The notes beneath the pieces are model-generated. The model searched no databases. It was given only the letters and a program-made list of their open reading frames with translations, and was not told where the DNA came from. This document shows, one piece after another, positions 3,555 through 30,048 of a DNA stretch of 64,000 bases (position 1 is its first letter; each line of letters begins with the position of its first letter). Source of the DNA: Chromobacterium subtsugae (GTDB lineage: Bacteria > Pseudomonadota > Gammaproteobacteria > Burkholderiales > Chromobacteriaceae); NCBI RefSeq assembly GCF_001676875.1, contig NZ_JYKA01000006.1, positions 62,001 through 126,000 on the forward strand. Reading direction: 5' to 3'. The position numbers and the translations under genes were made by a program.

Positions 3555-4508
3555 ATGACTTCTCGCAACATTGTATTTCTGGACCGGGACAGCCTGCCTG
3601 TCCCGGTTCCCGTTTTCAGCTTCCCCGCCCATTACCGCGAATATCCGGCCACCGCCGCCGAGCAGCTGCTGGAGCACGCCGCCGGCGCCGAAGTGCTGAT
3701 CAGCAACAAAGTGCCGCTCGACCGCGAGGCGCTGGCGCGGCTGCCGGGGCTGAAGCTGGTCGCCATCGCCGCCACCGGTTACAACCACGTGGATGTCGAG
3801 GCCTGCCGCGAGCGCGGCATCGCGGTGTGCAATATCCGCCACTACGGCGACCACACCGTGGCCGAGCATGCGCTGACGCTGATGCTGGCGCTGATGAAAA
3901 ACCTGCCGGCCTACCAGCGCGACGTGGCGGCCGGGGTATGGAGCCAGGCCAAGCAGTTTTGCCATTTCGGCGCGCCGATACGCGAGATGCGCGGCGCGGT
4001 GCTGGCCATCATCGGCTCGGGCGGCATAGGCGGCGAACTGGCCGCGATGGCGCGCGCTTTCGGCATGGAGGTGCTGTTCGCCGAGCGCAAGGGCGCGGGC
4101 CTGGCCAGGGAAGGACGGGTGCCGTTCGACGCGGCGCTGGCGCGCGCGGACGTGGTGTCGCTGCACTGTCCGCTGACCGACGAAACCCGCGGCATGATCG
4201 CGCAGGCGGAACTGATGGCGATGAAGCCGGGCGCCATCCTGATCAACACCGCGCGCGGCGGCCTGGTGGACGAGGCGGATCTGGTGGCGGCGCTGAAGTA
4301 CGGCCAGCTGGGCGGCGCCGGTTTCGACGTGCTGAGCAGCGAGCCGCCGGCGCCGGACAATCCGCTGTTGAAAGCGCGGCTGCCCAATCTGATCGTCACC
4401 CCGCATGTGGGCTGGGCCAGCGCCGAAGCGATGCGCAGGCTGGCGGCGCAGCTGGCGGAGAATATCGAAGCCTTTGTCCGCGGCGAGGCGCGCAATCGGA
4501 TTGTGTAA
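3555..4508 (+). CDS. D-2-hydroxyacid dehydrogenase (glycerate dehydrogenase/hydroxypyruvate reductase type)
   Basis: NAD(P)-dependent cytoplasmic oxidoreductase of 317 residues. The catalytic N-lobe motif AATGYNHVDVEACRERGI is followed by a Rossmann dinucleotide site (IIGSGGIGGELA), the NTARGGLVDEADL segment and the catalytic TPHVGWAS near the C-terminus. The ATGYNHVD form is typical of the glycerate dehydrogenase (HprA) branch rather than SerA or LdhA, and there is no C-terminal ACT domain, excluding SerA. Substrate is therefore inferred as hydroxypyruvate/glyoxylate. It follows the DUF2189 gene by 10 bp. Confidence 0.88.
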   Translation: MTSRNIVFLDRDSLPVPVPVFSFPAHYREYPATAAEQLLEHAAGAEVLISNKVPLDREALARLPGLKLVAIAATGYNHVDVEACRERGIAVCNIRHYGDHTVAEHALTLMLALMKNLPAYQRDVAAGVWSQAKQFCHFGAPIREMRGAVLAIIGSGGIGGELAAMARAFGMEVLFAERKGAGLAREGRVPFDAALARADVVSLHCPLTDETRGMIAQAELMAMKPGAILINTARGGLVDEADLVAALKYGQLGGAGFDVLSSEPPAPDNPLLKARLPNLIVTPHVGWASAEAMRRLAAQLAENIEAFVRGEARNRIV

Positions 4509-4541
4509 GAGAATATTTAAGCAGGAAAAATCAGAATTGAT

Positions 4542-4580
4542 AAAAGCTGGCTATTTCTGATGGGATAGCCGGCTTTTATT
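4542..4580 (+). terminator. Terminator after the dehydrogenase gene
   Basis: AAAAGCTGGCTA pairs with TAGCCGGCTTTT around a 12-nt loop and ends in a T-rich tail, 35 bp after the stop codon. Confidence 0.8.
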
Positions 4581-4623
4581 CGAGATGACAGTGTCTATTT
4601 TATTGATTTTATTTAAAAAGATT

Positions 4624-4652
4624 TTGATATCGCTTGATTTTCTGACTATGTT
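4624..4652 (+). promoter_or_regulatory. Promoter of candidate small RNA
   Basis: TTGATA at 4624-4629 and TATGTT at 4647-4652 with exactly 17 bp between them. It lies downstream of the dehydrogenase terminator, so it would not be needed for that gene, and no coding frame follows in the same direction before 5.3 kb. Confidence 0.5.
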
Positions 4653-4658
4653 GGGAAG

Positions 4659-4732
4659 GCTTGAACAGCCGTGGCTGTTTGAGTTGCCCCGCTTGTTGCA
4701 CCGTGGCCGGTCCTCCTCCACGGTGTTTTTTT
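4659..4732 (+). ncRNA. Candidate ~74-nt small RNA with CU-rich anti-SD loop
   Basis: Predicted from three ordered elements. A sigma-70-like promoter lies just upstream. Next comes hairpin 1 (AACAGC/GCTGTT with a CGTG tetraloop, 4664-4679). A single-stranded linker leads to a strong terminator hairpin (CACCGTGG/CCACGGTG, 4699-4725) ending in seven T. The 11-nt terminator loop is CCGGTCCTCCT, complementary to AGGAGG-type ribosome sites. Small RNAs that use C/U-rich loops to mask Shine-Dalgarno sequences are known in Neisseria and other bacteria; homology is not shown here. The alternative is a second terminator of the dehydrogenase gene with a chance promoter. Confidence 0.45.
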
Positions 4733-4748: not shown

Positions 4749-5228
4749 TTAGTCAGGGACATCGTTGGGGTTGACCCGCGGCTGTTCTTCTTCGCCCATG
4801 TCCAGTTTGCCGCGCACGCAGGAAATGTAGCGGTTGACGTCGGGGCCGCCGCCGTAGCGTTGGGCGTGCCAGATCATCTCGCCCAGGCATTCCATGATTT
4901 CGTGCTGGGCGCGGTGCTCGTCGCCGTGGCGCAACGCCAGCTGCGCGTACAGCGCGCGGATGCCGAAGGGCTGGTCTATCGAGCGCTGCTCGGCGATGGC
5001 GACGTGCAGGCCCAGGTGCAGGAAGGGATTGGTCTCGCCCATGTCCGGCGTCCACTCCTGTTCCAGGAAGGCCTCCGGGTTTTCCAGGATGGGATGATAC
5101 TCAGGGTGGTCTATAAGAATGGATAGGACGATTTGTTCCAGATCGGACAAAGCCTGGCCGGATTTGGACTTGCTCCAGGTATCGAAGAAAAAGCGGCGGG
5201 CGTCCTGGCGGCTGGGATTGAACAGCAT
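4749..5228 (-). CDS. DUF1841 family protein
   Basis: 159-residue soluble protein matching the DUF1841 pattern: an N-terminal SRQDARRFFFDTWSK, then a helical core with DHPEYHPILEN, NPFLHLGLHVAIAEQ and a C-terminal HEIMECLGEMIWHAQR. The conserved histidines and acidic residues hint at a metal- or nucleotide-binding helical bundle, but no function is established for the family. GAGG lies ten bases before the ATG. It diverges from the glutathione peroxidase gene. No terminator with a T-tract is visible on its strand downstream. Confidence 0.85.
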   Translation of the reverse strand: MLFNPSRQDARRFFFDTWSKSKSGQALSDLEQIVLSILIDHPEYHPILENPEAFLEQEWTPDMGETNPFLHLGLHVAIAEQRSIDQPFGIRALYAQLALRHGDEHRAQHEIMECLGEMIWHAQRYGGGPDVNRYISCVRGKLDMGEEEQPRVNPNDVPD

Positions 5229-5351
5229 GGATATGAACCTCGGGGGTGACTGACTGGGGCGCGGCGGGGCTTCCGCCTGCCCGGGCCTGGGGTGTCGGGC
5301 CGCAGGCGGTTGCCGTTCCGGGCTGCGGCATTATACGGGATGGAGGTTGCG

Positions 5352-5831
5352 ATGGCCACGTTCTACGATTTCACCACGCGGGCCGCGGACGGCACCGTCT
5401 GCGACTTGTCGGCGTATCGCGGCCAAGTGCTGCTGGTGGTCAATACCGCCAGCGAATGCGGCTACACCCGCCAGTACGCCGGCTTGCAGGAGCTGCAGGA
5501 TTTCTTCGCCGGCCAGGGATTCTCGGTGCTCGGCTTTCCCTGCAACCAATTCGGCGGCCAGGAGCCGGGCGGCGCCGACGAGATCCTGGCTTTTTGCCAG
5601 AGCCGCTTCGGCGTCAGTTTTCCGCTGATGGCGAAGCTGGAAGTCAACGGCGCCGGCGCCGATCCGCTGTGGCGCTGGCTAACCCAGGCGGACTCCGACC
5701 ACCCGCATCCGGTGAAGTGGAACTTCACCAAATTCCTGATCGACGCGCGCGGCCGGGTGGTGAAGCGTTACGAACCGGCGGTGGAGCCGCATGAGCTGGT
5801 AGACGACATCAAGGCTTTGCTGGCGAGGTGA
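5352..5831 (+). CDS. Glutathione peroxidase (Cys type)
   Basis: Reduces hydroperoxides with glutathione or thioredoxin; cytoplasmic, 159 residues. The peroxidatic residue is Cys36 in NTASECGYT, i.e. a cysteine rather than selenocysteine enzyme. The rest of the catalytic set is visible: Gln in FPCNQFGGQEPG and Trp in KWNFTKFLID. The ATG at 5352 is chosen because GGAGG lies five bases before it; an ATG four codons upstream would place that ribosome site inside the gene. It is divergent from the DUF1841 gene and convergent with trmB. Confidence 0.93.
   Translation: MATFYDFTTRAADGTVCDLSAYRGQVLLVVNTASECGYTRQYAGLQELQDFFAGQGFSVLGFPCNQFGGQEPGGADEILAFCQSRFGVSFPLMAKLEVNGAGADPLWRWLTQADSDHPHPVKWNFTKFLIDARGRVVKRYEPAVEPHELVDDIKALLAR

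Positions 5832-29969: not shown

Positions 29970-30048
<79 letters not shown>

Follow-up and report, generated by a model that had tools for sequence, protein, structure and literature searches.

The window analysed here, a 64,000-nucleotide stretch of DNA from Chromobacterium subtsugae, contains, between two protein-coding neighbours, what is very probably a real and conserved small RNA (sRNA) gene. The upstream neighbour (3555-4508, + strand) encodes a D-isomer-specific 2-hydroxyacid dehydrogenase with Pfam domains PF02826 and PF00389 and is followed by a terminator-like hairpin on the + strand at 4540-4579, with 15-nt arms that are 93% complementary, in keeping with the original prediction that this gene possesses a terminator of its own. 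An A+T-rich, UP-element-like stretch (4595-4623, +), noted on visual inspection of 12 aligned loci, precedes the promoter TTGATA-N17-TATGTT (4624-4652, +), in which TTGATA at 4624-4629 and TATGTT at 4647-4652 are separated by a 17-nt spacer. The 5' hairpin, SL1 (4659-4684, +), comprises 11 pairs including G-U, closed by the loop CGUG, and its first base, 4659 on the + strand, is the predicted transcript start. It is followed by an unpaired linker (4685-4698, +), whose core CCCCGCTTG at 4687-4695 is the proposed seed, and by the terminator hairpin SL2 (4699-4725, +), with arms at 4699-4706 and 4718-4725 that form eight perfect pairs around the loop CCGGTCCTCCT (4707-4717). A run of seven T (4726-4732, +), which is kept in the alignment of homologues, marks the predicted transcript end. 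The downstream, convergent neighbour on the - strand (4749-5228) encodes a DUF1841 protein (PF08897). Promoter, SL1, linker, SL2 and T run, all of which had been proposed from this single sequence, are present within 4624-4732 as described.

For the predicted transcript (4659-4732) the fold consists of two hairpins, with an energy of -29.8 kcal/mol and a z-score of -4.18 that none of 200 shuffled sequences equalled; the opposite strand folds worse (z -2.45), 2 of 200 shuffles being as good. The hairpin at 4540-4579, folded as 4535-4585, is very stable on both strands (z -7.4 on +, -5.8 on -), has runs of A and of T within its arms and resembles a two-way terminator. Separately, a sigma-70-like site with 10 of 12 consensus positions, TGGCCA-N17-TATAAT, lies 5' of the DUF1841 gene on the - strand (5330-5358), and it is the top-scoring promoter match among those listed for the first 20 kb.

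A promoter recognised by consensus match alone is weak evidence, such sites occurring six times in 20 kb where 3.1 are expected; it is the fixed place in relatives that carries weight. Among 23 homologous loci, 22 have, directly before SL1, TANNNT preceded by a -35-like hexamer at a distance of 16-18 nt, the site standing equally far from the hairpin in 21 and being shifted by 4 nt in one (L059). The same test was passed by 19 of 575 control windows further upstream, a rough control, since coding DNA falls within these windows and the loci, being related, are not independent. The copy in genome G010 fails this positional test. When the best-scoring promoter was sought without fixing its place, the outcome was ambiguous, the mean score being 8.09 against 7.37 in shuffled sequences and the best match often lying elsewhere. 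The comparison among relatives supports the original view of an independent sRNA gene that has a promoter and a terminator of its own, with transcription predicted to begin near 4659 on the + strand.

Homologues were collected by a DNA search of 61 genomes, which returned 13 syntenic loci besides the one in the window; the remaining matches were short and chance-like. The resulting 14 sequences were aligned and yielded a consensus fold of 16 pairs, 10 of them changed on both sides, and a covariance model, R1. When R1 was run against the 61 genomes of the family, 24 matched at E <= 0.05 and 23 were counted as real, of which 14 had built the model, and so match by construction, and 9 lie outside it. 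Conservation of the hairpins in relatives, on which the original prediction hinged, is thereby upheld in 23 genomes, with covariation. The sRNA occurs together with both neighbours in 17 of 19 Chromobacterium genomes, the present one included, and in 6 of 10 Aquitalea genomes (genus g7), the dehydrogenase and DUF1841 genes flanking it in 23/23 loci. The genome under study contains a single R1 match. The 24th match, in G080 (21.3 bits), and second weak matches in G011 and G016 were dropped as both neighbours were absent.

The weakest of the real matches (39.4 bits) is the G010 copy (L061), which is divergent: its G+C content is 45%, against 56-64% in the other 22, SL1 is largely reshaped, the linker reads CCCCGTTTG and the usual promoter place is empty. 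A wider search of 300 genomes drawn from the order produced 13 matches at E <= 0.01, namely six members already counted and seven weak matches (22.9-31.9 bits). Four of the seven were rejected after alignment, their terminator hairpin matching and their linker core not; the other three were inspected as sequence only. An exact-pattern scan of the genome_contigs collection, which may omit records close to the window's own genome, found 20 stretches, seven from Chromobacterium, one from 'Xenophilus sp. AP218F', five from Aquitalea and seven from unrelated organisms, and a T run followed the stem in none of these last seven.

Of the 38 family genomes that lack a real match, DUF1841 was located in 15, and with the model's filters switched off the best match across these 15 loci did not exceed 11.2 bits. 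G003, G004, four Aquitalea genomes and six others carry the two neighbours and no such RNA in the gap, and the dehydrogenase was not found at the remaining three DUF1841 loci (L134-L136). Clean empty sites, with both neighbours kept, occur in six close relatives (L122-L127, in G003, G004, G063, G065, G067 and G066), which fall in two clades of the tree. With the gene missing from its usual site in these relatives, the sRNA is dispensable over evolutionary time, and the six genomes constitute natural deletion strains for comparison. A single gain in the Chromobacterium-Aquitalea ancestor followed by two losses would fit the tree, which was built from the two neighbour proteins, was read by eye and has some poorly supported inner nodes. 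In a locus without the sRNA from genus g2 (L128), the gap between the two neighbours contains a linker-like sequence, GATTTGCCTCGCTTGTC, at 1420-1436, possibly a remnant or a chance occurrence. The R1 matches on the + strand of this locus (9.1 and 7.5 bits, at 397-442 and 1346-1383) both lie away from it, the one at 1346-1383 being an ordinary terminator, and L128 was therefore not counted as a member.

The alignment of all 23 copies supports the structure by compensatory change. In this alignment, which was fitted to R1 and is hence biased toward the model structure, 94.3% of the cells are paired, against 28-50% when the structure is slid along the sequences, and 11 of 16 pairs have changed on both sides. 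The covariation score is 0.435, against 0.229 in shuffled alignments, and none of 500 shuffles reached it; a less clear measure, the number of further pair types, was 23 against 20.5 in shuffles, 41 of 500 of which did as well. An independent MAFFT alignment of the 14 initial sequences likewise gave 92.9% paired cells, 10 pairs changed on both sides and a covariation score of 0.341 against 0.205. On the + strand, paired cells comprise 312 Watson-Crick, 33 G-U, 2 A-C and 19 other combinations in the 23 rows, and 183, 25, 3 and 13, respectively, in the MAFFT alignment. The excess of G-U over A-C (33 against 2) identifies the + strand as that of the RNA. Within the structure, all nine consensus pairs of SL1 have changed on both sides, with 90.2% of cells paired, and in the alignment SL1 is conserved in shape and free in sequence; its length varies by 1-2 nt among homologues, which means that no reading frame is kept. 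The sequence observation behind the original prediction is confirmed, and is stronger than claimed, whereas its interpretation is partly supported, half of it not being borne out.

The distribution of constancy along the RNA shows which half this is. Two segments stay constant, the linker core CCCCGCUUG, in 22 of the 23 loci, and the SL2 stem in its sequence; the nine-nucleotide form CCCCGCTTG is identical in the same proportion, the exception being G010. Mean column entropy is 0.28 bits in the linker, 0.19 and 0.22 bits in the two SL2 arms, 1.07 and 1.06 bits in the SL1 arms, 1.44 bits in the SL1 loop and 1.07 bits in the SL2 loop. The SL2 stem CCGTGG/CCACGG is thus nearly invariant, and the loop that it closes (4707-4717) is variable. 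The linker core is also the more open segment, with a mean unpaired probability of 0.88, against 0.60 in the SL2 loop, part of which is paired inside. The most constant part of this RNA is a short unpaired linker and not the loop that resembles a ribosome-site partner.

These data bear directly on the mode of action originally proposed, in which the CU-rich terminator loop pairs with ribosome-binding sites as an anti-Shine-Dalgarno element. The window's own loop does contain CCTCC, as do those of three other loci, and by eye the SL2 loops are pyrimidine-rich on their 3' side. Furthermore, CU-rich pairing over ribosome sites has been predicted for the Burkholderia double-hairpin RNAs (PMC5688073), and in the gonococcal sibling RNAs it is mainly SL2 that blocks ribosome sites (PMC9973317). 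Nevertheless, CCTCC is found in only 4 of 23 loops, or 4 of 16 distinct ones, and CTCC in 5 of 23; together with the high entropy and partial closure of the loop, this makes a conserved anti-Shine-Dalgarno element decidedly improbable, although the pyrimidine-rich loops may have a looser role of this kind. The accompanying claim that AGGAGG sites are common in the window holds weakly: the motif occurs 19 times on both strands, with 7 occurrences located 3-10 nt before ATG or GTG, and by a stricter count of 51 gene-like open reading frames it precedes a candidate start in one (1/51), GGAGG or AGGAG doing so in 10/51. A CU-rich loop seen in one genome is, as this case cautions, a poor guide to function.

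Taken together, the comparison points to a stand-alone gene whose product, an RNA of about 74 nt, is probably an Hfq-assisted, trans-acting sRNA with the linker as its seed. In this model, RNA polymerase would start near 4659 from the sigma-70-type promoter and stop in the T run at 4726-4732. SL1 would shield the 5' end, a function for which its shape alone would be needed, and SL2 with the U tail would terminate the RNA, leaving a 3' end of the type held by Hfq. Protection of the 5' end by a hairpin and Hfq binding by a U tail are general features of such RNAs, and an Hfq gene is present in 6/6 genomes searched. Between the hairpins, the open linker UGCCCCGCUUG would act as the pairing seed, a role that we consider reasonably likely in an antisense action, and mRNAs with CAAGCGGGG-like stretches would, most likely, have their translation or stability lowered. 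Support for the linker as seed comes from its conservation and its openness, not from any target.

The exact complement CAAGCGGGG occurs at 41, 38 and 24 sites in G000, G015 and G032, and its reversed control at 29, 22 and 41, so that the exact complement is not clearly enriched. After the antisense of each genome's own sRNA was left out, 100 of these 103 sites were used, and 13 of the 100 lie near a plausible start. No cross-genome DNA similarity was detected around the 100 exact 9-nt sites of the three genomes at E <= 1e-6, and the same test applied to the sRNA loci as a positive control recovered 3/3 genome pairs; hence no exact 9-nt target site appears to be conserved, not even from one species of the genus to another. 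Looser patterns were more frequent than their reversed controls, degenerate or start-tied forms of the complement occurring 261 times against 116 in G000 and, in a second count, 52 against 19, 42 against 16 and 30 against 22 times in three genomes; this excess was given no weight, since reversal alters the sequence context and the controls are rough.

A related pattern, AAGCGGGG, was sought within 20 nt before ATG in the three genomes and occurred at 110 distinct places. Among the 100 examined, 15 had plausible starts, no two of which were alike by blastp, and no shared gene emerged. In two cases, AAGCGGGG stands just before the start codon and right after the stop of the preceding gene, in permease-like genes of two species, the genome under study (L190) and G015 (L218), and these two genes have no likeness by blastp. 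The putative transporter permeases at L190 and L218, a putative MoxR-like ATPase at L205, a putative sensor protein at L262 and a cheA-like gene at L264 are single-genome candidate targets, which we do not take as evidence.

A linker seed does not account for the constancy of the SL2 stem, a feature that would allow for a protein partner. The linker and SL2 stem could together form a protein-binding module through which the RNA titrates or guides a protein, rather than acting mainly by mRNA pairing. The low entropy of the SL2 arms fits this idea, as SL1 demonstrates that stems in this RNA can covary, and so does the finding that G000, G015 and G032 do not use the SL2 stem pattern as a common terminator. 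The stem followed by 0-3 nt and T5 occurs once each in G000 and G032, at the sRNA itself, and was not found in G015, whose spacer between stem and T run is longer; given this rarity, the constancy of the stem does not reflect a genome-wide terminator type. The lack of a conserved exact target among the 100 sites of the three genomes also favours a protein module, but a run of invariant unpaired bases would equally be the appearance of a seed, and we regard this reading as unlikely. A more specific form, in which the 3' module of CCCCGCUUG linker, fixed stem and U tail, below a freely changing 5' hairpin, is recognised by a protein that is so far not known as an sRNA binder, is quite unlikely; if true, the RNA would titrate or guide that protein instead of regulating by antisense pairing, and would be restricted to Chromobacterium and Aquitalea.

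Two further readings derive from the genomic position. The synteny fixed in 23/23 loci would suit a cis-antisense RNA overlapping the convergent DUF1841 transcript at its 3' end, and in the window the possible terminator of that mRNA is the two-way hairpin at 4540-4579, beyond the sRNA. The scan for such sites covered only two further loci: the Aquitalea locus L060 has a terminator-like site on the DUF1841 strand before the sRNA, and in L048 the scan found no terminator, yet by eye a hairpin with four T is visible. Since cis-antisense pairing would not need an invariant linker alongside a free SL1 and loop, this alternative appears very unlikely. It is harder still to credit that there is no sRNA at all, and that the region is a spare terminator or a piece of the 3' UTR of the dehydrogenase gene, downstream of which it does lie in 23/23 loci. 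A promoter of its own stands in place in 22/23 loci, a terminator requires neither an invariant linker nor a covarying SL1, and the window's upstream gene is already followed by a hairpin of its own. The preferred reading remains a stand-alone sRNA with its linker as the proposed seed.

Chromobacterium is a genus noted for violacein, for quorum sensing and for opportunistic infection, and the literature on its small RNAs is seemingly scant. No description of this sRNA appears among the literature matches listed, a set with thin coverage of subscription journals, and PMC11019928, in its accessible part, mentions sRNAs only in general terms. It looks like a so far unlisted small RNA gene common to Chromobacterium and Aquitalea. 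A syntenic, covarying family with a seed-like linker and relatives that have lost the gene offers a clean start for finding a regulon.

No Rfam family matched the sRNA at gathering score in the window and 13 homologous loci, which were also scanned at relaxed thresholds; the only gathering match in the window is a tRNA at 29970-30045. Full-length but weak matches to ncS16 (RF02866; 12.8 bits in the window against a gathering score of 48) and ncS54 (RF02871; 11.8 bits in the window and 22.2 in L012, against 43) were rejected, and RF02866 exceeded its cut-off in 0/21 genomes. The location differs as well, as the Burkholderia ncS16 starts in the 3' UTR of ompA (PMC5688073). The Burkholderia double-hairpin RNAs of RF02278, which is absent from the Rfam matches of the window and homologous loci, share some features: they are short, intergenic and betaproteobacterial and consist almost wholly of two hairpins (PMC5688073). 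Unlike them, the present RNA has one copy and a near-invariant CCCCGCUUG linker. The gonococcal NgncR_162 and NgncR_163 (PMC9973317) similarly have stem-loops joined by single-stranded regions, and they pair with mRNAs by SL2 and sometimes through the unpaired stretch that separates SL1 from SL2. They differ in being two siblings with three stem-loops (PMC9973317), whereas the Chromobacterium RNA is single-copy with two helices. By analogy, and with no membership implied, this RNA would work like those sRNAs of Neisseria and Burkholderia that pair through linkers and loops.
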